NCBI GenBank assembly: GCA_022827345.1
Contig: JAJDTB010000073.1
Location: forward strand, 1-64,000
Reading direction: 5' to 3'
Length of the DNA stretch: 64,000 nucleotides
DNA from: Gemmatimonadota bacterium
GTDB lineage: Bacteria > Gemmatimonadota > Gemmatimonadetes > Longimicrobiales > Gaopeijiaceae
Under the pieces are notes generated by a model that did not search any database, was not told the DNA's origin, and saw only the letters and a program-made list of their open reading frames with translations. The translations under genes and the position numbers were made by a program. This document shows, one piece after another, positions 5,310-46,909 of this stretch. Each line of letters opens with the position of its first letter. The first letter of the stretch is position 1.

Positions 5310-6782
5310 ATGCAGGCGCAATGGAATGTAAAGCGTACTTTACATAATGTAATCTTTACCTTACTGAGCACGTCGCTCTTCATCCCCCAAACCGCCCTGG
5401 GCCAGCAACTGACACCCGAAGTCCGGGAGCGGATCGACGCGGTCTTCGCCGAGTACGACCGGACGGACGGGCCTGGGTGCGCGGTCGGGGTCGCCGAAGC
5501 GGGGACGCTCGTGTACGGGCGCGGCTACGGGATGGGCCAGCTGGATCACGGGATCCCGCTGAGCGAGCGGTCGGTCTTCTATCTCGCGTCGGTGTCGAAG
5601 CAGTTTGCGGCGGCGGCGATCGTCATTGCGGCGCACGAGGGACATCTGTCGCTGGACGACGAGGTGCGGCGGCACATTCCCGAGTTTCCGGACTACGAGC
5701 AGGGCGCGGTCACGGTGCGCCACCTCGTGCACCACACGGGCGGCGTGCGCGACTACCTCACCCTGATGTCGCTGGCGGGAACGCCGTACGAGAACATCCT
5801 GACCGACGAGGCCATGCTGGGGCTCATCACCCGGCAGAGGGAGCTCAACTTTGCGCCCGGGTCGGAGCATCTGTACAGCAATTCGGGGTATGTGCTGATG
5901 GCCGAGATCGTGAAGCGGGCGACGGGGCGGTCGCTGCGCGAGTACGCCGACGAGAAGATCTTCCGGCCGCTGGGGATGACGAGCACGCACTTTCACGACG
6001 ATCGCCAGCAGGTCGTGCGGGACCGTGTGTTCAGCTACGACGCGGGCCCGGACGGGGACTGGCGCACCAACTACCTGATGGCGTTCGACAAGGTGGGAGA
6101 CGGCGGACTGTACTCGTCGGTCGAGGATCTGGCGCGTTGGGACGGGGCGTTCTACGGCGACGTGCTGGGCGTGCCCGGCTTTGCGGAGCGGATGTATGAG
6201 CGGGGGGTGCTGACGAGCGGCGAGGAGATCCGCTACGCCCGCGGGCTCTCGGTGGAGCGGCGGCGGGGGCTCGCCCGGGTGTCGCACGCGGGCGGGTTCA
6301 TGGCGTTTCGCACGATGATCGCGCGTTATCCGGAGCAGCGGACGACCGTGATCGCGCTCTGCAACGCGGGGATGGCCAACCCGGTGCAGATGAGCCTCGC
6401 CGTCGAGGACATTCTGCTGGAGGATGCGTTCACCGAGGAGGCCGAGGTGGCGGCGGCTCCGCCCGCGGCACCGGGACCGGATACTGCCGGGGCCGAGGTG
6501 CCGGCCGACGTGCTCGCGGCCCTGACCGGCTCCTACCACTCCGACGAGATCGGGGCGACGTGGGTGATTGCGGCCGAGGAGGGGCGCCTGGTGCTCCGCC
6601 ATCCGAGCGGGGTCGACCGGGTGCTTGAGCATCGTGGCGACACTGCGGACGACCGGGCGGGCGACAAGGTATTCGGCGTCGGGGGGTTCGAACTGGCCTT
6701 CGAGGTCGAGGGTGGACGAGCGGCCGCGTTCGTGCTGGCGGCCGGGCGCGTTCGCAACGTCCGTTTCGACCTGGCGCGCTGA
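5310..6782 (+). CDS. Beta-lactamase-related serine hydrolase (class C/PBP4* type)
   Basis: 490 aa. ATG 5310 has a good Shine-Dalgarno (GAGGA, 5-nt spacing) and lies 8 bp after the di-haem gene. A signal peptide spans residues 1-32 (basic KR, then VIFTLLSTSLFIP, QTALG). The class C catalytic motifs are present: SVSK at 94-97 (nucleophile Ser94), YSN at 189-191, and HAGG near 328 in place of KTG. HHTGG near 142 is also typical. A C-terminal domain (about 400-490) follows, as in many peptidase-like members. Family members are D-aminopeptidases, esterases or DD-peptidases, so the substrate cannot be stated. Codons 6-19 are strikingly AT-rich because a 41-bp dyad element lies inside the signal-peptide coding region. 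Confidence 0.85.
   Translation: MQAQWNVKRTLHNVIFTLLSTSLFIPQTALGQQLTPEVRERIDAVFAEYDRTDGPGCAVGVAEAGTLVYGRGYGMGQLDHGIPLSERSVFYLASVSKQFAAAAIVIAAHEGHLSLDDEVRRHIPEFPDYEQGAVTVRHLVHHTGGVRDYLTLMSLAGTPYENILTDEAMLGLITRQRELNFAPGSEHLYSNSGYVLMAEIVKRATGRSLREYADEKIFRPLGMTSTHFHDDRQQVVRDRVFSYDAGPDGDWRTNYLMAFDKVGDGGLYSSVEDLARWDGAFYGDVLGVPGFAERMYERGVLTSGEEIRYARGLSVERRRGLARVSHAGGFMAFRTMIARYPEQRTTVIALCNAGMANPVQMSLAVEDILLEDAFTEEAEVAAAPPAAPGPDTAGAEVPADVLAALTGSYHSDEIGATWVIAAEEGRLVLRHPSGVDRVLEHRGDTADDRAGDKVFGVGGFELAFEVEGGRAAAFVLAAGRVRNVRFDLAR
5326..5366. promoter_or_regulatory. Tandem dyad element, copy 1
   Basis: First dyad 5326-5345 is perfect in its outer arms (ATGTAAAG...CTTTACAT, 12 bp between ATGT and ACAT). 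One base later, 5347-5366 begins a second (ATGT...ACTG, with inner GTAA and TTAC). The junction reads TTACATAATGTAA, itself a 13-bp palindrome. This copy lies inside the coding sequence, 16 bp after the ATG of the serine hydrolase, unlike the other promoter-proximal copies. Confidence 0.6.
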
Positions 6783-6916
6783 GGGGGGCACCGCGCGAGG
6801 GCGCCCCACGAGCGTGCCGCACGGGAACGTACAACCTTGACCCTTCCCCGTCTCCGTCTAGGTTTTTTTCCGGCAGATGTTTGCCGCGCGAATCGTTTCA
6901 GCGCTTGCGGGTGCGA

Positions 6917-7879
6917 ATGGTCCAGCTGACCGACGTCACAAAGTACTACGGCAGGAAGCGTGCCCTCGGCCCGGTTTCCTTCGAGATCGACCGGGGCGAC
7001 ACGGTGGGTTTCCTGGGGCTCAACGGGGTCGGGAAAACGACCCTGCTGCGCATCCTTGCATGCGGGCTGCGCCCGTCCTCCGGGACCGTCACGATCGACG
7101 GGCTCGACGTGCTGCGCGACCCCCACGAAGTGAGGAAGCGCGTGGGCTACCTCCCGGAGCTGCCTCCCGTCTACGGCGACATGCCGGTCAGCGACTACCT
7201 GACCTTCGTCGGGCTGCTCAAGGGGATGTCGCGGGAGCAGGTGGCCAGGCGGGTCCCGGAGGTCGAGGAGTACGCGCGCATCAGCGAGGTGCGCGACATG
7301 CCCACCCGGACGCTCTCGCAGGGGTACCGGCAGCGGGTCGGCGTGGCGCAGGCGATCATCCACGAGCCCGACCTCCTGATTCTCGACGAGCCGACCCACG
7401 ACCTCGACCCCGTGCAGATCATGGAGATGCGCGGGATGATCCGGGCGCTGAAGGACCACCACACCATCCTCATCTCGAGCCACATCCTGCCCGAGATCAG
7501 CGAGACCTGCGACCGGCTGCTGATCCTCAACGACGGCGAGATCGTCGCGTCGGGGAGCGAGGCCGAGCTGAGCGAGCGGCTGATGATGTCGCGCCGCATG
7601 GCGGTGACGGTGCGGGCGGGTGCGGGCGCGGCGCAGACGCCCGAGGCGGTGATCACCGGCGTGGAGGGGGTGACGAGGGTGGAGCGGGCGGGCGCGGCCG
7701 GCCGGGGCGATGGCGATGACGCCGGCCCCGCGACCTATCGCGTCGAGGGCGCCGCCGACCTGCGCGCGACAGTGTGCCGGGCGCTGGTCGAGGCCGGGCA
7801 CGATGTGATCGCGCTGAACCGTGCCGAGCGCGAGCTGGAGCGCGTCTTCGTCGGCCTGGTAGGAGGCGCGAAGTCATGA
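6917..7879 (+). CDS. ABC transporter ATP-binding protein, Gld/CcmA type
   Basis: 320 aa from ATG 6917; the open frame begins at 6881 but the ABC fold starts right at MVQLTDVTKYYG. Walker A is GLNGVGKTT (about 38-46), the signature is LSQGYRQRVGVAQ (about 136), Walker B LLILDEP (about 159), D-loop LDP and H-loop SSH. The usual DEPTNGLDP reads DEPTHDLDP. The C-terminal 90 residues are a variable domain as in GldA/CcmA-type exporters. It heads a four-gene operon: its stop overlaps the permease start by ATGA. The ATPase drives the permease and GldG-like subunit encoded downstream. In Bacteroidota the equivalent complex is required for gliding; whether it has that role here is unknown. Confidence 0.85.
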   Translation: MVQLTDVTKYYGRKRALGPVSFEIDRGDTVGFLGLNGVGKTTLLRILACGLRPSSGTVTIDGLDVLRDPHEVRKRVGYLPELPPVYGDMPVSDYLTFVGLLKGMSREQVARRVPEVEEYARISEVRDMPTRTLSQGYRQRVGVAQAIIHEPDLLILDEPTHDLDPVQIMEMRGMIRALKDHHTILISSHILPEISETCDRLLILNDGEIVASGSEAELSERLMMSRRMAVTVRAGAGAAQTPEAVITGVEGVTRVERAGAAGRGDGDDAGPATYRVEGAADLRATVCRALVEAGHDVIALNRAERELERVFVGLVGGAKS

Positions 7880-8613
7880 ACCTGCGAGCCACCGGGATCA
7901 TCTTCCGGCGCGAACTTCAGACCTACGTCCGCTCGCCGATGGGGTACATCGTGGCCGCGGTCGTACTGCTGCTCGACGGCGTGTTCTTCTACGCTACCGC
8001 GCTGGGGCCCGAGGCCGGCGAACGTCTGTCCGGGCTGGTTCTGGCGGGGTTCTTCTACAACGCCAGCGGACTGACGGCGGTCGCGGCGGTGGCGCTCTCC
8101 ATCCGCCTCATCGCCGAAGAGCGCCAGACCGGCACCCAGCTGCTCCTCGACACCTCGCCGGTGCGGGACTGGGAGATCGTGCTCGGCAAGTTCCTCTCGG
8201 CGCTGGCGTTCCTGTCGGCAATCACCGTCGCGACGCTCTACATCCCGCTGCTCATCCTGGTCAACGGCAAGATTGCGGTCGGCCACATCCTGATCGGCTA
8301 CCTCGGCCTGGTCCTGCTCGGCTCCGCGGTCCTCTCGATCGGCGTCTTCGCGACCTCCGTGACCCGCCACCAGCTCGTGGCGGCCGCCATCGCCGCAGTC
8401 ATCACCGGCGTGATGTTCCTCTTCTGGGAGCTGTCGCAGATCGTCGGGCCGCCTCTTTCGCGGGTCTTCGCGGCATTCGCGATCCACGGGCGGCACTTCG
8501 CGGGCTTTTTGTCGGGCCTGCTCCACCTGCGCGATGTCGTGTACTACCTGGCGGTGACGTACTTCTTCCTCTTCGCGGCGACGAAGGTCATGGAGGCCAA
8601 GCGATGGGAATGA
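7876..8613 (+). CDS. ABC transporter permease, GldF type
   Basis: 245 aa from ATG 7876, overlapping the ATPase stop by 4 bp. An N-terminal amphipathic RRELQTYVRSP leads into six predicted membrane segments (about 22-42, 58-80, 105-125, 137-160, 170-195, 220-240). The cytoplasmic loop EERQTGTQLLLDTSPVRDWEIVLGKFL is the coupling segment typical of ABC-2 permeases that pair with GldA-like ATPases. The gene overlaps the GldG-like gene by 10 bp. It forms the membrane channel of the complex. Confidence 0.85.
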   Translation: MNLRATGIIFRRELQTYVRSPMGYIVAAVVLLLDGVFFYATALGPEAGERLSGLVLAGFFYNASGLTAVAAVALSIRLIAEERQTGTQLLLDTSPVRDWEIVLGKFLSALAFLSAITVATLYIPLLILVNGKIAVGHILIGYLGLVLLGSAVLSIGVFATSVTRHQLVAAAIAAVITGVMFLFWELSQIVGPPLSRVFAAFAIHGRHFAGFLSGLLHLRDVVYYLAVTYFFLFAATKVMEAKRWE

Positions 8614-10607
8614 AGCAAGGGGGGCTGACCTGGCTGCTGCTGGCGGGCCTTGTCGTGGTCTTCACGGCGGTCCGCGTGCTCGACGGGATCGCCTGGCTGC
8701 ACCTGCCCCTCATCATCCTCGGCAGCGGCGCCGTCGTCGCGGCCACGGTCTGGCGCTTCGCGATCTGGCGGGGTGCCGAAGGCGACAGGCGGTCGGTCGA
8801 GGCGGTGTTTGCGTTCGGATACGCGGGGTGCGCGCTGGCGCTGGCGGGCTACGTTCCCGGCACCGAAGGCGGCATGGAGCTGCTCGGCATCGAGTTCGAA
8901 GAGATCCGGACCGAAATCCGCTTCCGGCGCTTCTTCCTGGTGGCCTGCCCCATGCTGCTGGCCGGATCGCTGCTGCCCGTGCTGGGCGCGCAGTGGGCGC
9001 TGGCGAGAGGGGGCAGCGCGGGCGCGGCGCAAGTCGATGCCATGCGGGTGCGCGAAACCGTCACGAACGGACTGAGCCTTGCGATGGGCGGATCGGCGCT
9101 GGTGTTCGTTGGATACATCACGTCGGCGCTCAACCAGACCGCCGACTTCAGCTACTTCAAGACGGCCACGCCGGGCGAGTCGGTGCAGGAGATCGTGCGT
9201 AACATGGACGGCACGCTCGAAACGGCGCTCTTCTTCCCGGAGGTCAATGCCGTCAAGGACCAGGTGCGCAACTACCTGGACGAGCTGGCGCGAACCACGG
9301 GCAAGGTCACGATCGCCGAGTACGACCGATACTCGAACCCGGACGCGGCCGAGGACTTCAACGCCCGCAGCGACGGCGAACTGTTCCTGCGCCTGAACGG
9401 CCGGACCGAGAGCGTCGGCTTCCTGCTCGATCTCGACGAGGCGCGCGGCAGGCTGCGCATTCTCGACAGCCATGTCCAGCAGGCGCTGCTCCAGCTGAAC
9501 CGCTCGCGCCGCTTCGTCTACATGACCAAGGGCCACGGCGAGTTCAACGATCCGGTCTCCGCGGACGAGCCGGAACCCGATCAGCCACCGTCGCTGCGCG
9601 ACTGGCGTCCGGGGATGGAATCGGAGATCGATCAGGGTCCGCCGCCGCGAGCGCTGCGGGAGATGCTCGGAATCCTCAACTACGAGGTGCGGGACATCGG
9701 GATCGGCGAGGGCCTGGGCGACCGGATCCCTGACGATGCCGCGATGGTGATGATCCTGGGGCCGCAGAGCGCCTTCCTCGATGCCGAGATGAACGCGGTG
9801 CGGGAGTATCTCGACCGGGGCGGCGCACTCCTCCTGGCGATGGAATCCCGCTCCGACTTCCAGATCGACGAGCTTCGCGACTACCTGGGCGTGGACTACA
9901 GCCCGCCGATGGTCATCGACGATCAGCGCTTCATGCCCGGCACCCCGCCGACGGTGGCCGACCGGCGCTTCATCGTCACGAACCGCTTCTCGACCCACCC
10001 TTCCGTGACCACCGTCGGCCGCGCCGGCGGCGACATCGTGATGATCGGCTCCGGCAGCTTCACGATCCCGGACACCGTCCCCGGCCGCCGCACCAGCCTC
10101 GTCGTCAATTCGCTCCCCTCCAGCTACGCCGACCTCAACGGCGACTTCCGGTTCGACGAGGAGACCGAGGTGAAGGAGAGCTACGGACTGGTGGCCGCGG
10201 TGGAGTGGACCGGGGATGGCAGCGCGGAGCAGTCCGCCGCTGACGCCGCGGAGGATCCGGAGGGTGGTGCGGAGGCCGAACAGGAGGAGGTGTTGCCCTC
10301 TTCCCGCGCCGGGTTGCGGGCCCTCGTGTTCGGCGACGCGGAGGTCTTCACCGACCAGGTCCTGGTCTCCATTCGCGCGAACCAGTTCGTCGTCGCCGAC
10401 GGCATCCGGTGGCTGGGAGGCGAGGAAGAGTTCGCCGGCGAGGTGGTGTCGGAAGAGGATGTGCCGATCATGCACACCCAGGCCGAGAACGTGACGTGGT
10501 TCTACGCGATCATCTTCGGGGCCCCGGCGCTGGTGCTTGCGGTGGGTGTCGCCACGCTCTACGGCCGGCGCAGGTCTCCGGCTGCCGTGGAAGGGGATGA
10601 AGAGTGA
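8604..10607 (+). CDS. GldG-like ABC transporter auxiliary protein
   Basis: 667 aa. Two N-terminal hydrophobic helices (about 8-28 and 33-52) and further segments (about 72-85, 110-130, 150-172) precede a large soluble domain with the Gld-family pattern: TALFFPEVNAVKDQVRNYLDEL, VTIAEYDRY, a SRRFVYMTKGHGEF block and MVMILGPQSAFLDAEMNAVREYLDRGGALLLAM, an IFT/GATase-like fold. A final transmembrane helix (about 632-652) anchors the C-terminus. The acidic linker around 540-565 is low complexity. It shares a GTGA overlap with the downstream DUF4340 gene. In gliding bacteria GldG partners GldA and GldF; the substrate is not known. Confidence 0.82.
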   Translation: MGMKQGGLTWLLLAGLVVVFTAVRVLDGIAWLHLPLIILGSGAVVAATVWRFAIWRGAEGDRRSVEAVFAFGYAGCALALAGYVPGTEGGMELLGIEFEEIRTEIRFRRFFLVACPMLLAGSLLPVLGAQWALARGGSAGAAQVDAMRVRETVTNGLSLAMGGSALVFVGYITSALNQTADFSYFKTATPGESVQEIVRNMDGTLETALFFPEVNAVKDQVRNYLDELARTTGKVTIAEYDRYSNPDAAEDFNARSDGELFLRLNGRTESVGFLLDLDEARGRLRILDSHVQQALLQLNRSRRFVYMTKGHGEFNDPVSADEPEPDQPPSLRDWRPGMESEIDQGPPPRALREMLGILNYEVRDIGIGEGLGDRIPDDAAMVMILGPQSAFLDAEMNAVREYLDRGGALLLAMESRSDFQIDELRDYLGVDYSPPMVIDDQRFMPGTPPTVADRRFIVTNRFSTHPSVTTVGRAGGDIVMIGSGSFTIPDTVPGRRTSLVVNSLPSSYADLNGDFRFDEETEVKESYGLVAAVEWTGDGSAEQSAADAAEDPEGGAEAEQEEVLPSSRAGLRALVFGDAEVFTDQVLVSIRANQFVVADGIRWLGGEEEFAGEVVSEEDVPIMHTQAENVTWFYAIIFGAPALVLAVGVATLYGRRRSPAAVEGDEE

Positions 10608-21825: not shown

Positions 21826-22151
21826 GTGCCCACTCCTATTCCCTTCTGGACAGGATGTCCAGGGCTCCGACTATATCGTACCGTCACGCCGTGCCAAACG
21901 CGAGTGGGCGGGTCCACCGACGCCGAGGCGGTTCGAGCGTAGACGAAAGATTAGGATCATGCGGGGCATTTCCATGGCTGGATGGGTCATCTTGCGCGCA
22001 GGCAGTGGCAAGGACAGCGTGCCAGATGAACCGAAATGTACGGAGAACTTTACATTTCGTAATGTGCGCATTACAGTGCGATTCGCGAGCGCGCTACGGG
22101 CGCGTTCCAGGCAGCGCGGTTCCCCAATCCAGACCGAAAGACGGCTACACC
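21826..22151. other. Divergent intergenic region with dyad element
   Basis: 326 bp between the divergent coiled-coil and cyclophilin genes. It holds the Shine-Dalgarno of the minus gene, an AT-rich patch near 21945-21965, and the tandem dyad element at 22036-22076. The plus frame is open through here, but codon quality is poor and the cyclophilin signal peptide only starts at 22152. Confidence 0.5.
22036..22076. promoter_or_regulatory. Tandem dyad element, copy 2
   Basis: First dyad 22036-22055 (ATGT, 12 bp, ACAT). The second, 22057-22076, contains a perfect inner GTAATG-TGCG-CATTAC. Start-to-start distance is 21 bp. It lies 75 bp upstream of the cyclophilin ATG at 22152, a normal operator position. 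Confidence 0.6.
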
Positions 22152-22856
22152 ATGACAAGAACGACACGGGTCCCGTTCGGCGCGATGCTCATCCCCGGCG
22201 CGCTCATCCTCCTGGCAAGCTGCGGTGGAGACAGCGGACAGACCACCGACGACGCCGACTTGCCCGCCAACCGGGCGCTGTACTTCCCGGAACAGCTCGT
22301 GGAGACCGCCCCGGAGTCGTTCCAGGCGCGCTTTGAGACGACCAGGGGCGATTTCGTCGTCGCGGTGACGCGATCGCAGGCTCCCAACGGCGCCGACCGC
22401 CTCTACAACCTGGTCAGGAACGGATTCTACGACGGGGTCCGCTTCTATCGGGTCATGGAGGGCTTCATGGCGCAGTTCGGCATGCACGGCGAGCCGCAGG
22501 TTCAGGTGAGGTGGACGAATGCGCCCATCCGGGACGATCCGGTCATGGCGTCCAATACCCGGGGCGCGGTCACCTTTGCGATGGCCGGCCGCAACAGTCG
22601 CACGACCCAGCTCTTCATCAACCTCGTGGACAACACCCTTCTGGACATGGACGGGTTCGCGCCGGTCGGCACGGTGATCGAGGGGATGGATGTGGTCGAC
22701 CAACTCCATTCCGGATACGGCGAGATCGCGGACCGGGGAGGCGACGGCCCCATCTCGCAGAACATCGCGGCCAGGGGCAACGCCTACCTCGAGGAGAGCT
22801 TCCCCGAGATGGACTACATCGTCACGGCGACGCTGGTGGATCCGACTGGAGGATAG
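22152..22856 (+). CDS. Cyclophilin-type peptidyl-prolyl isomerase, lipoprotein
   Basis: 234 aa from ATG 22152; upstream in-frame codons are ignored because this start gives a lipoprotein signal with lipobox LLASC. The cyclophilin domain (about 60-230) shows FETTRGDFVVAV, FYDGVRFYRVMEGFMAQFG, RGAVTFAMAGRNSRTTQLFINLVDN and GFAPVGTVIEGMDVVDQL. The catalytic arginine region (YRVMEGFMAQFG) and QLFIN motif are intact. Unlike cytoplasmic PpiB, it is exported and lipid-anchored, so it helps envelope protein folding, alongside the parvulin at 2648. The tandem dyad element upstream suggests regulated expression. Confidence 0.88.
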   Translation: MTRTTRVPFGAMLIPGALILLASCGGDSGQTTDDADLPANRALYFPEQLVETAPESFQARFETTRGDFVVAVTRSQAPNGADRLYNLVRNGFYDGVRFYRVMEGFMAQFGMHGEPQVQVRWTNAPIRDDPVMASNTRGAVTFAMAGRNSRTTQLFINLVDNTLLDMDGFAPVGTVIEGMDVVDQLHSGYGEIADRGGDGPISQNIAARGNAYLEESFPEMDYIVTATLVDPTGG

Positions 22857-27845: not shown

Positions 27846-28439
27846 GTGAAGCCCGACCGGCAATCCCTCCCCCTGCTGCGACGATTGCACGAGCGCGTCT
27901 TCGCGGACCCGGCCGTGCGCGCCGTGTTGGACGCGGGCTTCGCGCAGCTGGCCGCGGCGTTGCAGAAGCGGCCCGATCCGCCGCACGCCACCTGCACGGT
28001 CCCGATCGAGCTCTTCGCGGACGACGCGCGTCACGACGAGGTCAGACTATGCCGGGTCTTCCTGTTGCGACGCGGCAAGCGAATGGCCGTACCGGAGCGG
28101 CACTGCAACAGTGTGCAGCGCCTGGTTTCGTATCGCGGCAGGGGCGCCATTCACCAGGGAGTGCCCGGCGGTGGCCCGGAGGGGTTGCGGGCGAGGGCGA
28201 TCGGCAGTCCGGGCGCGAAGCGATCCGCGCACCGCGATGGCCAGGTCGCCGACACCACCGATCTTGCCCGCCACTGGGACATTGTCCCCGAAGGCAGCTG
28301 GCACTTTCCGGAAGCTGCGGAGACCAGCGACTGGGCGACCGTTACCTTCCACAGCGCCGCCGAGGACGAGATCGTTGATGAGCTTTGGCTCGGTGACGCA
28401 ATCGTGCGGTCATTGAATCAATATGTAAAGAAAACATGA
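27846..28439 (+). CDS. Cupin-like hypothetical protein
   Basis: 197 aa from GTG 27846, one base after the CocE stop. No signal peptide. The N-terminal third is helical (LHERVFADPAVRAVLDAGFAQLAAALQ). The remainder suggests a cupin: PERHCNSVQRLVSYRGRGAIHQ could be the first metal motif and WDIVPEGSWHFPEA the second (PxGxWHxP), followed by an acidic end. I do not recognise a defined family. Its last codons (QYVKKT, stop) lie within the tandem dyad element that precedes the next gene. Confidence 0.5.
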   Translation: MKPDRQSLPLLRRLHERVFADPAVRAVLDAGFAQLAAALQKRPDPPHATCTVPIELFADDARHDEVRLCRVFLLRRGKRMAVPERHCNSVQRLVSYRGRGAIHQGVPGGGPEGLRARAIGSPGAKRSAHRDGQVADTTDLARHWDIVPEGSWHFPEAAETSDWATVTFHSAAEDEIVDELWLGDAIVRSLNQYVKKT

Positions 28440-28463
28440 CATAATGTCGTGTATACTATACTT
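28423..28463. promoter_or_regulatory. Tandem dyad element, copy 3, with overlapping -10 box
   Basis: First dyad 28423-28442 (ATGTAAAG...CATGACAT), second 28444-28463 (ATGT...ACTT), 21 bp apart. Two overlapping TATACT hexamers (28452-28457, 28457-28462) sit in the second dyad, so bound protein would occlude the promoter. The ATG of the 100-aa gene is 21 bp downstream, which would make the leader very short. Confidence 0.65.
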
Positions 28464-28484: not shown

Positions 28485-28787
28485 ATGCGCCAACCAACTG
28501 AAGACGAGCAGGTAGTAATCGACCTGATCCTGTCCGGTGTCAACGAATACCTGGTGCCGGAGCGAATCGGCATTACGTGGGGCGAGTACGCAGCCTGGTA
28601 CGGCGACCCGACGGGTACACGAGCGAGCCTCATCAGGCAGGCCAAGAAGGACTACATGGACACCCAGGAACGCCTGCCGCCCGAAGACCGGGCCGGACAT
28701 GCGGCGGACGCCATTCTCCGGTTCAAGCAGAAGATCATCGACGACGAAGTTGAGAGGATTATCCGGCAGAGCCAGAATGACCGATAG
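28485..28787 (+). CDS. Small acidic protein of unknown function (100 aa)
   Basis: ATG 28485 follows a near-perfect Shine-Dalgarno (AAGGAGG, 4-nt spacing); the frame is open 12 codons earlier, but that part is promoter DNA. The protein is soluble, charged and mostly helical: EDEQVVIDLILSGVNEYLVP, then a WGEYAAWYGDPTGTR block, and a C-terminal helix FKQKIIDDEVERIIRQSQNDR. No cysteine, membrane segment or known motif. It overlaps the BNR protein gene by 11 bp, so the two are translated from one message. The strong ribosome site and dedicated regulated promoter argue that it is a real gene, perhaps a regulator or partner of the downstream exported protein. No family recognised. Confidence 0.65.
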   Translation: MRQPTEDEQVVIDLILSGVNEYLVPERIGITWGEYAAWYGDPTGTRASLIRQAKKDYMDTQERLPPEDRAGHAADAILRFKQKIIDDEVERIIRQSQNDR

Positions 28788-37197: not shown

Positions 37198-39036
37198 ATG
37201 GGACGATCAAGCCGGACGTTCGTTCTCGCAGTCGTCATTGGACTCTCCGCGCCGATGTCGGTAGACGCACAGCGGCCGGATCCCGGCGACTATTCCGACG
37301 CCCGATACGGTCTGGAGGAACTCCGCGGCGTCATGGTTCCCATGCGGGACGGCGTTCGGCTCTCCGTGGACATCTATCGGCCCGACGCACCCGGGCCCTT
37401 TCCCGGCATCCTTGCCCTCACTCCGTACGACAACACACGGATCGGGCAGCGCGAGGCGGCCCGCTGGTACGGCAGCCGCGGCTACGTCGTGGTCCTGGCC
37501 GATGATCGCGGCCGCTTCGACTCGGAGGGGGCGTGGGATCCCTTCGGCCAACTCCACCAGGAGGATGGCTACGACCTGGTGGAGTGGATCGCCGCGCAGC
37601 CCTGGTGCAACGGAAGGGTCGGTATGATCGGTGGGTCCTATCTGGGCTGGACCCAGTGGTGGACGGCCAGCGCCGCACCGCCGTCCCTCAAGGCCATCGC
37701 GCCGGAGGTGGCCCCGCCGGACCACTTCGAGAACGCCCCCTACCAGAACGGGGTGCTGGCCGGATGGATCATGGACTGGGGCGCCCGCATGTCGGGACGC
37801 ACCTTCCAGACGGTGGACGAAGGGCCCTACACCGGGTGGACCAACACCCGGGCCGAGGACTTCAAGCACACACCCTACGTCACGCTCAACGAGTCGCGGG
37901 GCCTTCGCAGCGCCCCCTGGTTCGAGACCTGGATCCGGCAGAACCGATCGAGCGATCCCTACTGGCGGGGGATCGCCTATCAAGGGCAGGAACACTGGTC
38001 GCGGATGACGGTTCCGGCCGTGGCCATCACGGGCTGGTTCGACGCGAACTACCCGGGCTCGCCCATGAACTACATGGGGATGAAGGAGTACGGTGCGACT
38101 CCCGAGGCTCGGCGGCCGACGCTGATCATCGGCCCCTGGACCCATGGGCGCTACGTGAGAGAGGCAGCGGGGATCGACTACGGTCCCGAAGCCAACTTCG
38201 ACTTCAAGGAGTACGCCGCCCGCTGGTTCGACCACTTTCTGAAGGGGGTGGAAAACGGGGTCCGGGGCGACCCGCCGGTCTACGTATTCGTGATGGGAGA
38301 GAACGCGTGGCACGCGGAAGACGACTGGCCACTTCCCCAAACTCGCTGGACCCGTTACTACCTCCGTTCCGGGGGGAACGCCAATTCCCTCAAGGGCGAC
38401 GGGGTGCTTGGCAGGTCGGCGCCGGTGTCCGAGGGTCATGACACGTACGCGTATGATCCCTTGAGTCCCACGCGAGATCCCTTCTTCGCCCGTCCCGGCC
38501 ACAACGGCCACATCGACGGGGCCGTCGACGCACGGCTGCCGGCTCTGGGCGACGAGGTCCTCGTTTACGAGACGCCGCCCCTGGAGGAGGCGGTGGAGGT
38601 GACCGGCCCCATCGAGGCCAGACTGTACGCCTCGACCTCTGCCGAAGACACCGACTGGATGGTTCGCCTGGTCGATGTCCACCCCGATGGTCATGCCGCG
38701 TTCCTCGCAGACGGCGTGATGCGCGCCCGCAACCGGGATCCGGATGCGGAGGGCCGCTTTAGCGCTGCCGAACTCAGCACCATCGAACCCGGCAGGGTCT
38801 ACGAATACACGATCCGGTTCTGGCGTGGGACGGGGAACCTGTTCCGGGTCGGCCACCGGATCCGGATCGAGATCTCGTCGAGCTACTATCCCTACTACCT
38901 GCCGAACCTGAACACCGGACACGACAACGTGGGGCTGGCGTTGGCTGACGAGGCCGTGGTGGCCGAGCAACGAGTGTACCACGGGGGCAGTTATCCGTCC
39001 CATGTGGTGCTGCCGGTGATTCCGCCGAGGCGCTGA
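37198..39036 (+). CDS. CocE/NonD family hydrolase, secreted (copy 2)
   Basis: 612 aa from ATG 37198 (a GTG lies one codon earlier). A cleavable Sec signal ends near SVDAQ, with no lipobox, so it is periplasmic or secreted. Hydrolase motifs: VVVLADDRGRFDSEG, nucleophile elbow GGSYLG (Ser147), acid in ITGWFDANYPG (about 277) and histidine in GPWTHGRYV (about 315). The C-terminal PepX-like jelly roll contains IEARLYASTSAEDTDWMVRLVDVHPDG and GNLFRVGHRIRIEISSSYYPYY. It is 55-60 bp after SusD and probably belongs to the SusCD unit, acting on the imported compound (acyl ester or acyl amide). Confidence 0.88.
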   Translation: MGRSSRTFVLAVVIGLSAPMSVDAQRPDPGDYSDARYGLEELRGVMVPMRDGVRLSVDIYRPDAPGPFPGILALTPYDNTRIGQREAARWYGSRGYVVVLADDRGRFDSEGAWDPFGQLHQEDGYDLVEWIAAQPWCNGRVGMIGGSYLGWTQWWTASAAPPSLKAIAPEVAPPDHFENAPYQNGVLAGWIMDWGARMSGRTFQTVDEGPYTGWTNTRAEDFKHTPYVTLNESRGLRSAPWFETWIRQNRSSDPYWRGIAYQGQEHWSRMTVPAVAITGWFDANYPGSPMNYMGMKEYGATPEARRPTLIIGPWTHGRYVREAAGIDYGPEANFDFKEYAARWFDHFLKGVENGVRGDPPVYVFVMGENAWHAEDDWPLPQTRWTRYYLRSGGNANSLKGDGVLGRSAPVSEGHDTYAYDPLSPTRDPFFARPGHNGHIDGAVDARLPALGDEVLVYETPPLEEAVEVTGPIEARLYASTSAEDTDWMVRLVDVHPDGHAAFLADGVMRARNRDPDAEGRFSAAELSTIEPGRVYEYTIRFWRGTGNLFRVGHRIRIEISSSYYPYYLPNLNTGHDNVGLALADEAVVAEQRVYHGGSYPSHVVLPVIPPRR

Positions 39037-39088: not shown

Positions 39089-39129
39089 ATGTAATGACAA
39101 CATTACATCATGTCATGTAAACATTACAT
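39089..39129. promoter_or_regulatory. Tandem dyad element, copy 4 (best match)
   Basis: Dyads 39089-39108 (ATGTAATG...CATTACAT) and 39110-39129 (ATGT...ACAT), both with 12 bp between half-sites and start-to-start 21 bp. All four half-sites are perfect. The element ends 40 bp upstream of the amidohydrolase ATG at 39170, implying that this gene is controlled separately from the SusCD-CocE unit. Confidence 0.7.
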
Positions 39130-39169: not shown

Positions 39170-40669
39170 ATGCGAGCTTTCAGCGTGATCCCGATCCTGG
39201 CCGTTGTCGGGTGCCAGGCAGACCCCCCCGATGGGAGTGCAGGGTTCCCGGAGCAGTCGGCGGCCGAGGTGGGAGCCTTCGACCTGGTGATCTCGGGCGG
39301 CCGGGTAATGGATCCCGGGACCGGCCTCGATGCCGTCAAGAACGTGGGGATCGCGGACGGCCGGATTGTCGCCGTTACGGAGGACCCCCTGGAGGGCTCC
39401 GAATCCCTCGAGGCGGATGGCTTGGTGGTGGCCCCCGGATTCATCGACCTTCACGCCCACGGCCAGGATCCGGTGAGCGCACGTTTGCAGGCCGCCGATG
39501 GGGTCACCACGGCCCTGGAGATGGAGATCGGCGTCTTCCCGGTATCGGAGTGGATCGCGACGAGGGAAGGACAGGCGATCATTAACTTTGGCGCGACCGT
39601 CAGCCATGCGGGGGCCCGCTTCATGGTGGTGGACGGCATCAAGGCACTGCACTGGCCCACCCTGACCGAAGAGGAGTCGGCCGCACTCGACGCCGGCATG
39701 GGCGCATACGCCGAAATCACCGAACAGCAGATCGGCGAGGTCATCGAACTGCTGGAGGACGGCTTGACGGAGGGCGGCCTGGGCATCGGCTTTGGAATCA
39801 CGTATACGCCGGGAGCGTCGCGCCTGGAGATCCTGCGCACTTTCGAGATGGCGGCCACGCGAGGTGTGCCGGCCTATGTGCACCTGCGCGGCCGTGACTC
39901 GGGCGGCACCCTGGGAGCCTTCCAGGAGGCCATCGCCGACGCGGCGATTACCGGTGCGTCCCTGCACATCGTGCACATGAACAGCAGTTCCGGCGAACTT
40001 GCTCCGGTCACACTTGGAATGATCCGGGGCGCACGGGATCAGGGACTCGACATCACTACGGAGGCCTATCCCTACACTGCGGGATCCACGCGCATCGAGT
40101 CAGCGGCCTACGACAGCTGGGAGGACAACCCGGATGCCGATTTCGGCCGGCTCCAGTGGGCGGTCACCGGTGAGCGTCTGACGGCCGAGACCTTCCGCCA
40201 GTACCGGGCCACCGGAGGGTGGGTAATCGCCCATGGGCGCACCGAAGAGATGAACGAGTGGGTTACCGTCCAGCCGGACGTGATGGTGGCAAGCGATGGC
40301 ATTCCCTTCCTTTACGGGCCCGCGCATCCCCGTGGGGCTGGCACCTACGCGCGTGTGCTGGGGCGCTATGTGCGTGAGCGCGAGTCCCTGTCCCTTATGG
40401 ATGCTCTGGCCAAGATGACAATCCAGCCAGCCAGGCGGGTCGAGGATGTGGCCCCCGTGATGGCGCGGAAGGGTAGGGTGCAGGTCGGCTCGGACGCGGA
40501 CCTCACGCTGTTCGATCCGGAGACAGTGATCGACCGGTCCACCTATTCGGACGGGGACCAGCCCTCGGCCGGGATCGTGCATGTGATGGTGGAGGGCCAG
40601 TTCGTGGTGCGAGATGGGGAAGTAGTGGACGGAGTGTTCCCGGGCAAGGTGATTCGCGGGACGAGGTAG
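39170..40669 (+). CDS. Amidohydrolase, N-acyl-D-amino-acid deacylase-like, lipoprotein
   Basis: 499 aa. Signal ending in lipobox AVVGC (Cys15). The amidohydrolase fold shows an N-terminal beta-sandwich (LVISGGRVMDPGTGLDAVKNVGI), metal motif APGFIDLHAHG (HxH, about 92-98), YVHLRGRD, LHIVHMNS and VMVASDGIP (metal Asp). D-aminoacylases usually have a cysteine as extra metal ligand in the second strand; here the segment is ALEMEIG, so a glutamate probably replaces it. The C-terminal KGRVQVGSDADLTLFDPETVIDR closes the sandwich. Family enzymes release D- (or L-) amino acids from N-acyl derivatives. An exported lipoprotein form next to SusCD and CocE suggests extracytoplasmic processing of acyl-amino acids. 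Confidence 0.85.
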   Translation: MRAFSVIPILAVVGCQADPPDGSAGFPEQSAAEVGAFDLVISGGRVMDPGTGLDAVKNVGIADGRIVAVTEDPLEGSESLEADGLVVAPGFIDLHAHGQDPVSARLQAADGVTTALEMEIGVFPVSEWIATREGQAIINFGATVSHAGARFMVVDGIKALHWPTLTEEESAALDAGMGAYAEITEQQIGEVIELLEDGLTEGGLGIGFGITYTPGASRLEILRTFEMAATRGVPAYVHLRGRDSGGTLGAFQEAIADAAITGASLHIVHMNSSSGELAPVTLGMIRGARDQGLDITTEAYPYTAGSTRIESAAYDSWEDNPDADFGRLQWAVTGERLTAETFRQYRATGGWVIAHGRTEEMNEWVTVQPDVMVASDGIPFLYGPAHPRGAGTYARVLGRYVRERESLSLMDALAKMTIQPARRVEDVAPVMARKGRVQVGSDADLTLFDPETVIDRSTYSDGDQPSAGIVHVMVEGQFVVRDGEVVDGVFPGKVIRGTR

Positions 40670-40763: not shown

Positions 40764-43217
40764 ATGACGATCCGTCCCTTCGCCGCCGCAATCCTCACGC
40801 TCAATTTCCTGCTTGCGCAGCCATCCGACCGGTTGGCCGCGCAGGACGCCTACCGCACCCCTCCCCCCGATGTCGTCGGCATCCTGGACGCCGCCCCCTT
40901 CCCCCAGGCGGTGGTGAGTCCATCCGGCGACTGGATGATCCTCGCGCACGGCGAGAGCATGCCCGGGATCGAGGATCTGGCGGCGCCGATGTTGCGGCTC
41001 GCCGGGCGCCGGATCAGTCCGGTGACCAACGGCATGCACGCCGCGCCGCCCTTCGTGCGCTTCTCGGTCGTCGACCTGGACGGTGGTGACGCGCGGGATG
41101 TGACCGGTGCCGAGGACGGCCTGGGTGTGCCCATGTGGTCGCCCTCCGGCGGCACCTTCGCCTTCACGCGAACGACCACCGACGGCGTCGCCCTGTGGCT
41201 GGCCGACACAGAGACGGGCGCCGCCCGCGCGCTGACGGGCCCCTCGCTCAATGGCGCCCGGGGCGAGCCCTGCTCCTGGATGCCCGGCGGCGGCTCCCTG
41301 CTCTGCCACTTCGTGCCCGACGACCGCGGCGCCGCACCCGAACCGGGGGCGATCCCCATCGGGCCCGTCATCCAGGAGTCCGGCGGCGAGGCTGCCCCGT
41401 CCTGGACCTTCCAGGATCTGCTTGAAGATGCCCACGACGAGGCGCTGTTCGACTACTACCTGACGTCGCAGCCGGCCATCGTCGACGCAGGCTCCGGAGC
41501 CACACGGCCCATCGGCGCACCGGCCGTCTACGAATCCCTGGAGCCGTCACCCAGCGGCGAGTACTTCCTCTCGGTCCGCACGGTGCGTCCCTACTCGTAC
41601 CTGGTGCCCGACTCCCGCTTCGCCAAGGAGGTGGAGGTCCTCGGCGGCGACGGCGCGCCCCTCCGCACCCTCGCCACCCTGCCCCTGGACGAAGGCGGCC
41701 CGGAACACCTCGGCTTTCGCCGCGCCGGCCTCCGCCAGTTCTCGTGGCGCCCCGGGGTGCCCGCCACCCTGGCCTACGTGGAAGCTCTCGACGGCGGCAA
41801 TCCATCGCGCGACGTGCCCCACCGCGACCGCGTGCTGACCCTCGCGGCGCCCTTCGAGGGGGACGGCACCGAACTCATCCGCACCGAACACCGCCTGGGT
41901 TCGGGAGCCTTCGGGTTTGGCTACCCGGTCCTGTGGGGCGAGGACGGCCAGACCGCCCTGGTCTACGAATTCGACTGGCCGACAAGGCGGACCCGTGCCT
42001 GGACCGTTCAGGCCTCCGCCGCCGGCACCGAGCCCGCACTTCTCTGGGACCGGAGCACCGACGACTGGTACGGCAATCCCGGCGACCCGGTCATGACTCA
42101 GGACGGGGCGGGCAAGCCCGTGGTCCGAATGGCCGGCACCAGCATCTTCCTGGCCGGCCCCGGCGGATCTCCCGAAGGCGACCGGCCCTTCCTGGACCGC
42201 CTGGACCTCGCAGCCGCTCAGCTGCAGCGGCTCTTCCACTCGGGCGCGGACGCCTACGAGACGGTCGTCGGCCTGGCGGACGCACGGGCCGGACGCATCG
42301 TCATCCGCCGCGAGACCAGCGAGGAGCCCCCCAACTACCACCTCGTCACCACCAGCGACGGCGGCCGCACCGCCCTCACGTCATTCCCCAACCCCCAGCC
42401 CCAGCTCGCGGGCATCACCAAGAGCAAGATCTACTACGAGCGCGACGACGGCATCCCCCTCTCGGGCGAGCTGTATCTGCCCGCCGGCTACGAACCCGGC
42501 ACGCGTCTCCCGGTGCTGGTGTGGGCCTACCCGCGCGAGTTCGCGGACGAGGACGGGGCGGGGCAGGTCCGGGGTTCGGCCCACCGCTTCACGACTATCT
42601 CCGGCGCTTCGCACCTCCTGCTCCTCACGCAGGGTTATGCGGTGCTGAACGACGCCGCGATGCCGATCGTCGGCGGCTTCACGGCGAACGACACCTACGT
42701 GGAGCAGCTGGTGGCCAACGGCAGGGCCGCGGTGGACAAGCTCGTCGAGATGGGCGTCGCCGACCGCGACCGGATCGGGATCGCCGGCCACAGCTACGGC
42801 GCCTTCATGACTGCCAACATGCTGGCCCACTCCGACGATTTCGCCGCCGGGATCGCGCGCAGCGGCGCCTTCAACCGGAGCCTCACGCCCTTCGGCTTCC
42901 AGTACGAGCGCCGCACCTTCTGGGAGGCGCCCGAGGTCTACTTCCGCATGTCGGCCTTCATGCACGCCGAGAAGATCAACGAGCCTCTGCTCCTCACCCA
43001 CGGCGTCATCGACAACAACTCCGGGACCTTCCCCGTGCAGTCCGAGCGGATGTACCACGCGGTGAAGGGCCTGGGCGGCACCGTCCGCCTGGTGATGCTG
43101 CCGCACGAGAGCCACGGCTACCGCGCCCGCGAATCGGTCCTGCACACCGTATGGGAGATGTTCGACTGGATGCGGCGTCATGTGGAGGAGCGGCAGCGGG
43201 AGTTGATTCCCGAATGA
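40764..43217 (+). CDS. S9 prolyl-oligopeptidase family, glutamyl-endopeptidase-like
   Basis: 817 aa with a Sec signal ending near RLAAQ and AGGAG 9 bp before the ATG. The first 560 residues form a beta-propeller with GIEDLAAPMLRLAGRRI near the N-terminus, typical of the S9D group that includes plastid glutamyl endopeptidase. The catalytic domain has the triad Ser677 (GHSYGAF), Asp750 (GVIDNNSG) and His784 (HESHGY), with VLVWAYPREFADEDGAGQVRGS before it. It is predicted to cut peptides in the periplasm or outside. Its stop overlaps the next gene by ATGA, coupling it to the class A hydrolase. Confidence 0.88.
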   Translation: MTIRPFAAAILTLNFLLAQPSDRLAAQDAYRTPPPDVVGILDAAPFPQAVVSPSGDWMILAHGESMPGIEDLAAPMLRLAGRRISPVTNGMHAAPPFVRFSVVDLDGGDARDVTGAEDGLGVPMWSPSGGTFAFTRTTTDGVALWLADTETGAARALTGPSLNGARGEPCSWMPGGGSLLCHFVPDDRGAAPEPGAIPIGPVIQESGGEAAPSWTFQDLLEDAHDEALFDYYLTSQPAIVDAGSGATRPIGAPAVYESLEPSPSGEYFLSVRTVRPYSYLVPDSRFAKEVEVLGGDGAPLRTLATLPLDEGGPEHLGFRRAGLRQFSWRPGVPATLAYVEALDGGNPSRDVPHRDRVLTLAAPFEGDGTELIRTEHRLGSGAFGFGYPVLWGEDGQTALVYEFDWPTRRTRAWTVQASAAGTEPALLWDRSTDDWYGNPGDPVMTQDGAGKPVVRMAGTSIFLAGPGGSPEGDRPFLDRLDLAAAQLQRLFHSGADAYETVVGLADARAGRIVIRRETSEEPPNYHLVTTSDGGRTALTSFPNPQPQLAGITKSKIYYERDDGIPLSGELYLPAGYEPGTRLPVLVWAYPREFADEDGAGQVRGSAHRFTTISGASHLLLLTQGYAVLNDAAMPIVGGFTANDTYVEQLVANGRAAVDKLVEMGVADRDRIGIAGHSYGAFMTANMLAHSDDFAAGIARSGAFNRSLTPFGFQYERRTFWEAPEVYFRMSAFMHAEKINEPLLLTHGVIDNNSGTFPVQSERMYHAVKGLGGTVRLVMLPHESHGYRARESVLHTVWEMFDWMRRHVEERQRELIPE

Positions 43218-44212
43218 ACCGGTTATCAACCTCAGGCAGGCGCCCCGGGAGAACCGCCATGTTCCGTGCGGAGATTGCCGCCGTGCTCCTTACCGCCGCC
43301 CTCATCCCCCCCACCACCCAACCCGCGCTCGCCCAGGAGGCCCACCGGGAGATCCTGGCGGCCAAGTACCAGGAGGCGCTGGACGAAATCGCGTGGGAGC
43401 TTCCCGGCGTCATGGGAATCGCCGTCATCGATCTTGCGGGCGAGCGCGTGTTCGGCGTGAACGAGGCGCTCGTCTTTCCCCAGGGGAGCGCCATCAAGGT
43501 CTCGGTTCTGGTCGCGATGTACGTGCGGCAGGCGCGCGGCGAGATGGACGTCGACCGGCCGGTCGCGATCCGGGCCGAGGAGCGGGTGGGCGGCAGCGGT
43601 TACATCCGGCACTTCGGCGACGGCACCTCGTCGCTCTCGCTGCACGACCTGGCCGTCATGATGATCACCGTCTCCGACAACATGGCGACGAACATGCTGA
43701 TCGACCGGGTGGGGATGGAGAACGTCACCGCCATCATGGCCGAGCTGGGCCTGCCCGGCACCCGCCTGCAGCGCAAGATGATCCGACAGGAACAGAGTGC
43801 CCGGGGCAACGAGAACCTCTCCACCCCGCTCGAGGCCGCGACCCTCATGCGGCGCATCCTCGAATGCGACCTGCCGATGCCCACCGAAGATTGCCGCGAA
43901 ATGCAGGCCGTCCTCGCCATTCCGCACGCCGGCCCGATCCAGGACGGCACCGGTCCGGGCGTGCGCGTGCTCCAGAAGACCGGTTCGATCGCCGGCGTCC
44001 GCACCTCGTGGGGCGTGGTCGACCTCGAGGGGCGCCCGTACGCGCTCGCGGTCATGGGCAACTACGGCGAGACGCCCGAGATCTCGGCCGAGATCGAAAC
44101 CGTCGCTGCCCTCAGCTACTGGTATTTCACCCGGCTTGCCGGCGCGACCGAGTACGGTACTCGCGTGCCCGTGGACCTGCTCGAGAGGATCAGGCGCCGC
44201 CAGCCTCGCTGA
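43214..44212 (+). CDS. Class A beta-lactamase-fold serine hydrolase
   Basis: 332 aa from ATG 43214, overlapping the S9 stop; an internal ATG at 43259 would give a shorter signal. The signal peptide ends near PALAQ. Class A motifs: SAIK (S-x-x-K, about residues 91-94, in FPQGSAIKVSVL), SDN (about 155, VSDNMATNMLIDRVG) and KTG (about 258, LQKTGSIAGVRT). The omega-loop region reads ARGNENLSTPLEAATL rather than the strict ExxLN, as in the broad Beta-lactamase2 family. It could be a beta-lactamase or a peptidoglycan/peptide hydrolase. Genetic linkage with S9 and zinc peptidases favours the latter, by context only. Confidence 0.85.
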   Translation: MNRLSTSGRRPGRTAMFRAEIAAVLLTAALIPPTTQPALAQEAHREILAAKYQEALDEIAWELPGVMGIAVIDLAGERVFGVNEALVFPQGSAIKVSVLVAMYVRQARGEMDVDRPVAIRAEERVGGSGYIRHFGDGTSSLSLHDLAVMMITVSDNMATNMLIDRVGMENVTAIMAELGLPGTRLQRKMIRQEQSARGNENLSTPLEAATLMRRILECDLPMPTEDCREMQAVLAIPHAGPIQDGTGPGVRVLQKTGSIAGVRTSWGVVDLEGRPYALAVMGNYGETPEISAEIETVAALSYWYFTRLAGATEYGTRVPVDLLERIRRRQPR

Positions 44213-44314
44213 CAGGCCGGCCACCTTGTCCATTACGAAGTACGCAGGTTGGGACAACAAGCCTTGAGCCCCTGTGCCTGCCACCTCCTCAGCCCCGAAA
44301 AGGACTGTCCGACA

Positions 44315-46840
44315 ATGCGCCCAGTGAACACCGCCATCCCGCATCTGCCCCCTCGGTCTCCCGTGGCGGCCGCAGCCGCGCTCTTCCTCGCCGCGGCCCT
44401 CCTCTTCCCGCCAATCCCCGCGGCCACCCAGGCACCCGCGGCCGCCGGCCCCCTCCCGACCATCGCCGACTACACGCGCGGCATGGACGCCCAGCCCGGC
44501 TACTTCCCGCTCTACTGGGACGACGCCGGAGGCCGGCTCCTCCTCGAGGTGGGCCGCTGGGACGAACAGTTCCTCTACCTGACGTCGCTTGCGACCGGGG
44601 TCGGCTCCAACGCGCTGGGACTCGACCGCGGCAACATCCAGAGCGCGTACCTGGCCCACTTCGAGCGGGTTGGGCCGAAGGTGCTGCTCGTTCTCGACAA
44701 CCCTGGCTTCCGCGCGGAGACCGATCCGACCGACGCGCTCGTGCGGTCCGTCGAGGAGTCGTTTCCGACCTCGACGGTCGGCGGCTTCACGGCGGTCGCC
44801 GAGGAGGACGGGCGGACGCTGGTCGACGCGACCTCGTTCTTCCTGCGCGATGTCGTCGGGATCGCGGCCCGGCTGCAGGCGGCGAACCAGGGCGCCTACC
44901 GGCTCGATGCGAATCGGAGCGCCATCTTCCTGCCCCGCACGAAGGCGTTCCCGGAGAACACCGAGGTGGAAGCGTCGCTCACCTTCGAGAGCGATCGTCC
45001 GGGGGGCGAGATTCAGCGCCACACACCGGACGGGCGGGCGATGACGCTGCGGCAGCATCATTCGCTGGTGATGCTCCCCGACGACGGCTACACGCCCCGC
45101 CGCTTCGACCCCAGGATCGGGGTCTTCGCCACCGGCTATTTCGACTTCGGCAAACCCTTCGACGACGACTACCAGACGGCGCTGGCGAGGCGCCACCGGC
45201 TGGTCAAGGCCGATCCGGCGGCGGAGATGAGCGAGGCGGTCGAGCCGATCGTCTACTACCTCGATCCAGCGGTGCCCGAGCCGTACCGCACGGCATTCAA
45301 GATCGGAGGCGTGTGGTGGAACCAGGTGTTCGAGGCGGCGGGGTTCATCGACGCCTTCCGCATCGAGGACATGCCGGCGGACATGGACCCGATGGACGCG
45401 CGCTACCATGTCATCCAATGGGTGCACCGGACGCAGGCGGGCTCGTCGATCGGGCCGTCGTTCACCGATCCCCGCACGGGAGAGATCATCAAGGCGGCGG
45501 TGCGGATGGACTCGTACCGGTCGCTCGCCAACTACAACACTTTTGCAGGGGCGGCCGGGGTGGACGGCGACTGGTACGCGGGCGCGCCGCCGGGCGTCGA
45601 CGGCGAGGAGTTCGTGATGATGCGCCGCCGGCAGCACTCGGCCCACGAGATCGGGCACACGCTGGGGCTCGCCCACAACTTCATCTCGATCAGCGACGGG
45701 CACGCGTCCGTGATGGACTATCCCGCGCCGGTGATCGAACTGCGCGATGGGCGCCTCGACCTGTCCGGGGCCTATCGTGCCGGCCCTGGGGCGTACGACA
45801 CGCTCGCGATCCGGTACGCCTATGCGTCGCCGCCTCCCGGCGAGAGCGAGGAGATGTTCCTGGGCGGCCTGCTCCTCGAGGCGCAGGAGCGCGGCTGGCG
45901 CTTCATCACGAACCCGGATGCCGGTGCCGACAACTCGTACCCGGATGCGACCTGGTGGATCAATGGGAGCGACGTGCTCGACGAGTTCGAACGCGTGAGC
46001 GAGGTCCGGCGCTTCATGATCGACTCCTTCGACGAGCGCGCGATCGAGCCGGGCGAGCCGATGCACAAGCTGCGGGAGCGCTTCGCGCCGGTGTACTTCA
46101 GCCACCGCGCCACGTACGAGGCCGCGATCAAGACGATCGGCGGGATGGAGTACACCTACGGGGTGCGCGGCGACATTCTGCCGGTGACGGAGCTGGTGCC
46201 GGCGGACCGGGTGCGGCGGGCGATGGGGCTGCTGAGCGATGCGCTGGCCCCCGAGCAGCTCGCGATACCGGAGTCGGTGCTGGAGATCATGGCGCCCCGG
46301 TCGTTCGGGTGGGTGACGGGCGGGCCGGCGTGGTCGAATCGGGCGGGTCCGGCCTTCGATCAGATCGGGGCTGCGACTACCGTCGCGAGCGAGATCGTCG
46401 GCGGGGTGCTGGCGCCTGGCCGCACGGCGCGTGTGGTGGCGTTCCACGCCCGTGACCCGTCGCTGCCGAGTCTTGAGGAGGTGGTGGCGCGGCTGGTGGA
46501 TGATGCGTGGGACCGGTCCGGGAATGCAGCCGAAGCTGCGCTGGTGCGCGTGGTCCAGAACGTCGTCGTGGACGAGTTGCTGGCTCTGGCGGCGAACGAG
46601 GCGGCGACCACCGAGGCACGCGCGGCGGCTGAATGGGGACTCCGGCGCGCCCAGTCTCGCGCGGCGTCCGACTCCGCCACAGGCGACTCCGCCGATCCAA
46701 CGGGTGCGACCGTGGTGGCGCACGCCGAGCGGGTCGTCAGCACGATCGATCGCTACTTCGAGCGACCGTGGGCGGCTGGTGAGCGTACCGAAGCGCCGCA
46801 GGGTCCGGGGTGGGCGCGGGATCGGCCGGTCGGCCACTGA
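44315..46840 (+). CDS. Zinc-dependent metalloprotease (DUF5117/DUF4953 type)
   Basis: 841 aa from ATG 44315; the frame runs back to a TTG at 44249, but only this start yields a proper signal (alanine-rich, ending near AATQAPA). The N-terminal DUF5118/5117-like part includes DYTRGMDAQPGYFPLYWDD and RTKAFPENTEVEASLTF. The catalytic motif HEIGHTLGLAH (His444, Glu445, His448, His454) is a metzincin-type HExxHxxGxxH, followed by SVMDYPAP as the Met-turn. The C-terminal DUF4953-like region ends with helical repeats. These large exported proteases are frequent in Bacteroidota and Gemmatimonadota, and probably degrade extracellular proteins. The gene converges with fabH across a 184-bp gap rich in palindromes. 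Confidence 0.88.
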   Translation: MRPVNTAIPHLPPRSPVAAAAALFLAAALLFPPIPAATQAPAAAGPLPTIADYTRGMDAQPGYFPLYWDDAGGRLLLEVGRWDEQFLYLTSLATGVGSNALGLDRGNIQSAYLAHFERVGPKVLLVLDNPGFRAETDPTDALVRSVEESFPTSTVGGFTAVAEEDGRTLVDATSFFLRDVVGIAARLQAANQGAYRLDANRSAIFLPRTKAFPENTEVEASLTFESDRPGGEIQRHTPDGRAMTLRQHHSLVMLPDDGYTPRRFDPRIGVFATGYFDFGKPFDDDYQTALARRHRLVKADPAAEMSEAVEPIVYYLDPAVPEPYRTAFKIGGVWWNQVFEAAGFIDAFRIEDMPADMDPMDARYHVIQWVHRTQAGSSIGPSFTDPRTGEIIKAAVRMDSYRSLANYNTFAGAAGVDGDWYAGAPPGVDGEEFVMMRRRQHSAHEIGHTLGLAHNFISISDGHASVMDYPAPVIELRDGRLDLSGAYRAGPGAYDTLAIRYAYASPPPGESEEMFLGGLLLEAQERGWRFITNPDAGADNSYPDATWWINGSDVLDEFERVSEVRRFMIDSFDERAIEPGEPMHKLRERFAPVYFSHRATYEAAIKTIGGMEYTYGVRGDILPVTELVPADRVRRAMGLLSDALAPEQLAIPESVLEIMAPRSFGWVTGGPAWSNRAGPAFDQIGAATTVASEIVGGVLAPGRTARVVAFHARDPSLPSLEEVVARLVDDAWDRSGNAAEAALVRVVQNVVVDELLALAANEAATTEARAAAEWGLRRAQSRAASDSATGDSADPTGATVVAHAERVVSTIDRYFERPWAAGERTEAPQGPGWARDRPVGH

Positions 46841-46868
46841 CGAGCATTCCTGGCTGCCGGAGACAGAA

Positions 46869-46909
46869 ATGTATACCAAACATGACATTATGTAAAGAAA
46901 ACATTACAT
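46869..46909. promoter_or_regulatory. Tandem dyad element, copy 5 (orphan, between convergent genes)
   Basis: Dyads 46869-46888 (ATGTATAC...CATGACAT) and 46890-46909 (ATGTAAAG...CATTACAT), all four ATGT/ACAT half-sites intact, 21 bp apart. It lies 28 bp after the protease stop and 115 bp before the end of fabH, so neither flanking gene is downstream of it. It could mark an unannotated transcript or the remnant promoter of a lost gene. Confidence 0.6.

Follow-up and report, generated by a model that had tools for sequence, protein, structure and literature searches.

A 41-bp tandem dyad element of a Longimicrobiales genus: putative operator of an XRE-PBP_like regulator, carried by a MITE and frequent at gene ends

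Correia elements (NEMIS) of Neisseria are MITEs of two sizes, 155 bp and 107 bp, and the longer form has an IHF site in its 50-bp internal sequence (PMC2229807). The same review of bacterial MITEs asked whether binding motifs carried by such elements turn functional at new chromosomal places after rearrangement, and proposed seeking MITE remnants that retain the motif at orthologous places (PMC2229807). Regulators of the TaoR family combine an HTH_17 domain with a PBP-like domain and regulate tungstoenzymes and Mo/W transport (PMC10102598, PMC11980592). The REP/BIME repeats with their RAYT transposases are high-copy palindromes of 20-40 bp (PMC3733652). Here, we describe a 41-bp tandem dyad element that, with a probability of roughly three in four, is the putative two-dimer operator of an XRE-PBP_like regulator, has been spread by a MITE and has had its core kept by selection.

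The element was found in a window of 64,000 nucleotides, the whole stretch of DNA that was analysed, which belongs to a marine Gemmatimonadota, Longimicrobiales MAG (G000; 4.79 Mb, 75 contigs). Five sites, each made of two 20-bp units, had been listed in an earlier note, and their coordinates and unit sequences proved exact on recheck (Table 1). The first units match 8 of 8 end bases in all five sites and the second units 6, 5, 7, 8 and 8 of 8, which agrees with the description of full second units in two sites and partial ones in three. The window contains seven matches to the pattern ATGT-N12-ACAT, all of them within the five sites; other spacers give 0 or 1 matches each, except for N7, every match of which lies inside these sites. 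According to the comparison of orthologous loci, the sites at 5326 and 22036 are also kept in the close relative G009, and the site at 28423 has no counterpart at the orthologous place in that genome. Hairpins of the form GTTTCAG..CTGAAACGTTTT recur beside the 41-bp site (window 46909-47010 and the right flank of L064); they probably function as terminators or else belong to another family of small repeats.

Table 1. The 41-bp sites of the window and their neighbour genes
Feature	Coordinates	Strand	Remarks
41-bp site	5326..5366		24 bp past stop of di-haem oxidoreductase gene, at beta-lactamase-like gene start
41-bp site	22036..22076		divergent gene pair; cyclophilin gene 108 bp downstream
41-bp site	28423..28463		100-aa orphan gene begins 21 bp downstream
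41-bp site	39089..39129		flanked by S15 peptidase stop (52 bp) and amidohydrolase start (40 bp)
41-bp site	46869..46909		convergent gene pair; DUF4953 metalloprotease-like stop 28 bp before
Di-haem oxidoreductase (PF06537)	4132..5301	+	neighbour gene
Beta-lactamase-family hydrolase (PF00144)	5361..6782	+	neighbour gene; start codon position uncertain
Cyclophilin (PF00160)	22185..22856	+	neighbour gene
100-aa orphan	28485..28787	+	neighbour gene; no Pfam match
X-Pro dipeptidyl-peptidase S15 family	37255..39036	+	neighbour gene
Amidohydrolase (PF07969)	39170..40669	+	neighbour gene; the "deacylase" of the earlier note
DUF4953/DUF5117 metalloprotease-like	44315..46840	+	neighbour gene
3-oxoacyl-ACP synthase III	47025..48032	-	convergent partner at site 46869

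The 20-bp unit has the consensus ATGTAAWGT-NN-ACWTTACAT. Since the two units are separated by a single base, mostly A or T, the whole element is palindromic and contains four half-sites, each a helical turn from the next. The bases at positions 10, 11, 31 and 32 of the element are nearly free, conservation drops abruptly at both 41-bp edges, and in G000 the conserved stretch extends past the element by no more than a single flanking A/T. The genome was scanned with the pattern ATGTA-N10-TACAT-N-ATGTA-N10-TACAT, a 20-base skeleton for which <=3 mismatches were allowed, and G000 returned 87 matches, against 0 for the reversed control. Among TGTA-N10-TACA unit pairs of G000, collected with gaps of 0-30 bp, 16 of 16 have the 21-bp phase; other spacings are thus not equally common, and the repeat as first observed stands. 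The proposal that the element serves one regulator, as a pair of dimer-type sites that share a DNA face, is likewise supported.

In the genus of G000, site numbers range from 20 to 162 in 22 of 23 genomes (G000 included), and G008 is the one genome without any; in other genera of the same family and order, the count is 0 or 1. An exact-pattern scan of public genomes found many Gemmatimonadota MAGs, several of them named Longimicrobiales, plus scattered loci in other phyla. A perfect tandem copy is also present on each of two viral contigs (L075 13661 and L076 4779), and no XRE gene lies in its vicinity.

The sites coincide with a single candidate regulator. A profile built from small XRE proteins that adjoin the element in other phyla (see below) has exactly one strong match, an XRE-PBP_like protein (PF01381+PF12727), in each of the 22 site-bearing genomes of the genus, and it gave no match in G008. 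As the 22 genomes share ancestry, this correspondence may reflect few independent events. G008 has kept modABC, and the regulator gene is cleanly absent from its place between modA and the gene that usually precedes it; this gap lies on one contig, which makes an incomplete assembly an improbable explanation. The expectation that a regulator gene outside the window would carry its own copy of the site was borne out by the G000 candidate, a protein of 369 aa encoded at contig C32:212.4 kb. At intact loci, the protein has 261-370 aa and is composed of HTH_3 (E=1.3e-13; HTH_31 also matched) plus a PBP_like sensor domain (PF12727, E=2.5e-43). The operon order in G000 is regulator-modA-modB-modC, the modC match being below its equivalog cut-off. 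A copy of the element, with 2-6 mismatches from the skeleton, is located ~60-150 bp upstream of the start of all 22 regulator genes. The regulator gene also precedes modABC in the neighbouring genus G033, where two upstream units have a 22-bp phase and one further element match is present genome-wide. At L176 (G010), the regulator is shortened to 261 aa and has lost part of its PBP domain, yet site density is highest in this genome, with 162 sites in 2.8 Mb.

TaoR-like proteins are the nearest regulators, with a PBP-like sensor fused to a DNA-binding domain and a position adjoining Mo/W transport genes, and they differ in that their DNA-binding domain is an excisionase-type HTH_17 and not XRE/HTH_3. 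HTH_17 is not listed among the domain matches of the present protein, which is therefore classed as an XRE-PBP_like molybdate-operon regulator and not as TaoR. A further difference is the putative operator, here a tandem dyad of 41 bp that recurs throughout the genome. By analogy, the regulator may work like TaoR; a literature search for PF12727 with XRE returned mostly irrelevant matches.

How the sites were dispersed is indicated by a short, non-coding, dispersed repeat of 249 bp. This MITE carries the 41-bp site in the distant congener G021 and has the ends GCAGCCCGTGGACA and TATCCACGGACTGC and a TIR (GCAGYCCGTGGAYA), with ~80-89% identity. Matches to it are present in all genomes of the genus. 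In G021, which is one complete contig, a MITE arm can be recognised at 23 of the 47 sites examined; an asymmetric site orientation exceeds the null in this genome only, because the MITE carries sites there. The aligned copies of G008 measure ~174 bp and lack exactly the 75-bp segment that bears the site, and 174-bp copies without this cassette are also present in G021. Some MITE copies have TAG or TGA on both sides, as a target-site duplication would leave, and others do not. The claim that the element is not a mobile repeat is therefore not supported: the interiors do vary freely, but the MITE carries the element in relatives and in a few copies in G000, where a few full MITE copies exist elsewhere in the genome. 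The bare G000 sites may descend from MITEs, of which an arm is detectable at only 1 of 54 examined sites. The Correia elements are the nearest parallel, both systems having two MITE sizes that differ by an internal stretch with a protein site. Here, however, the predicted protein is a specific metal-operon regulator and not IHF, and selection maintains copies throughout the genome that consist of the site alone. Two further observations concern the behaviour of the MITE. At L199 (G021:C1:207278-207816), three 249-bp copies with identical sites follow each other head to tail with no spacer, which suggests an unusual amplification route. At L043, compared across 23 genus genomes, MITE-end scars are found at the same gene end in several species, G004 and G019 among them, as if this gene end had been hit repeatedly.

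Given this carriage, the dispersed copies could be neutral and useless to the host, left behind by a parasitic MITE that carries an operator perhaps because the regulator helps or tames it. The turnover of sites is compatible with this: between G000 and the distant G021, a site is common to 1 of 13 orthologous gene ends, so turnover is fast, and such low sharing of places between distant species is expected of mobile relics. The lack of a functional theme among neighbour genes points the same way. Against it stand the persistence of the site where the MITE arms are gone and the comparison with G009, which shares ~95% DNA identity with G000. At 29 orthologous loci, the site is intact in 23, absent in 6 and half decayed in 0. 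The core is substituted at 4.1%, compared with 14.9% for degenerate positions inside the sites (p=1.6e-8) and 11.8% for intergenic flanks (p=5e-7). In the first version of the selection test, G009 sites were picked by the same pattern, and a simulation indicated that this bias could explain much of the difference, leaving P=0.036. The test was redone because of this ascertainment bias; the later version added loci that were located through synteny and identified from flank homology only, and as many loci were still chosen from the G009 site list, some bias remains. The sites thus appear constrained while present, with purifying selection on the 41-bp core, and neutrality of the copies is considered unlikely.

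A second alternative is a conventional global regulon, in which the regulator represses or activates the promoter beside each site, much as the earlier note had envisaged. The copy at the mod operon overlaps promoter-like hexamers in G000 and others (judged by eye), and 36% of the G000 sites lie <=100 bp upstream of a start. This is no enrichment over the 44% of the intergenic null, and the site at 46869, between convergent genes, has no promoter target. With gene calls from a simple home-made caller, 62% of the non-MITE sites of G000 are found <=30 bp after a stop codon, compared with 13% in the null (p=2.5e-16), and for G021 the values are 54% and 12% (p=6e-7); MITE-borne sites reach 13%. 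Convergent intergenic regions are enriched (23 of 53 non-MITE G000 sites, null 11%), and divergent regions are under-represented (8 of 53). The neighbour genes are diverse, with neither a molybdenum theme nor a common pathway in 20 that were sampled. Placement at gene ends therefore leaves only a minority of sites to a classical promoter regulon, and as a general explanation it is improbable. From the expectation that genome-wide hits would sit in promoters with 21-bp phasing, the phasing has been retained and the promoter placement has given way to a preference for gene ends.

The sites might also shape or tether the chromosome as a nucleoid-organising element in which one protein occupies dozens of places. 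This possibility is in line with 20-162 symmetric, intergenic sites per genome with no target theme, but the protein is of a ligand-sensing regulator type, encoded in a metabolic operon, and G008 lives without it, making such a role quite improbable. An origin-terminus pattern could not be read in G021, as the noise in GC skew was too high with samples of 12 kb. Finally, a REP-like hairpin or terminator acting at the RNA level would suit a palindromic, intergenic element close to stop codons, some copies of which are preceded by GC-rich hairpins, but covariation of base pairs within units or across the junction did not exceed shuffled controls and the exact 21-bp phase suits a DNA-bound protein, so the element looks like a protein-binding DNA site and not an RNA structure, and the hairpin reading is weakened to a very slim chance. 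The REP/BIME repeats are similar in being high-copy palindromes between convergent or co-directional genes; the 41-bp consensus differs by free interior bases and the lack of hairpin covariation. Membership in this class was rejected, as neither a GTAG nor a CGTC tag appears in the position table and covariation is lacking.

Outside the Gemmatimonadota group, the same operator accompanies small XRE proteins. A regulator gene of this XRE (HTH_3) family was found <=2 kb from exact copies of the 41-bp element at 29 of 39 loci, compared with 0 of 20 control regions; the XRE profile was built on 15 of these 29 proteins, so that the remaining 14 loci form the independent part. The typical layout in other phyla is the site followed by an operon of the small XRE gene and a short membrane protein. 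This pair was seen next to the element at L083, L086, L087, L089, L096, L099, L103, L107, L137, L139 and others; at L096 and L139, an ABC transporter gene replaces the membrane-protein neighbour. These small COG1476-like regulators with a membrane-protein partner thus have the 41-bp operator beside their gene in many phyla; in contrast to the present regulator, they are without a PBP domain, and their site is typically upstream of their own operon. Operators of BlaI/MecI/CopY and of PadR have TACA/TGTA or ATGT/ACAT arms. The arms of the 41-bp element are alike, and its spacing and cognate protein family differ. BlaI, PadR or MarR had been considered as the cognate family, and the recurrent XRE/Cro-C1 neighbours argue against such an identity.

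The reading preferred here, an operator spread by a MITE and retained by selection, can be arranged as a sequence of steps. The XRE-PBP_like regulator would originally have autoregulated its own modABC operon, upstream of which the element is seen, presumably with molybdate as its ligand. A 174-bp MITE may then have gained the 75-bp operator cassette within the genus and spread it; forms with and without the cassette both exist. After insertion, the arms would decay and the 41-bp core would be kept by purifying selection, mostly just behind stop codons. Between convergent genes, two bound dimers could halt polymerases arriving from either side. The favoured, though tentative, proposal for the orphan copies is that the regulator, when bound, would form a symmetric roadblock or insulator at gene ends, a minority of copies serving as operators of downstream promoters. 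A wider version, in which the MITE turned a molybdate-operon regulator into a genome-wide bidirectional 3'-end insulator whose roadblock strength may vary with molybdate, is doubtful.

The genus fits the pattern sought by the MITE review (PMC2229807), as it combines a MITE with and without its cassette and site-only copies under purifying selection. G008 represents a natural regulator-minus species that is also without sites. Dozens of predicted sites for a regulator of a metabolite-sensing type lie behind genes and not in front of them, and protein roadblocks at bacterial gene ends thereby become testable. To our knowledge, the widespread small XRE family has no known DNA-binding motif, and the operator common to these phyla provides it with a predicted one.
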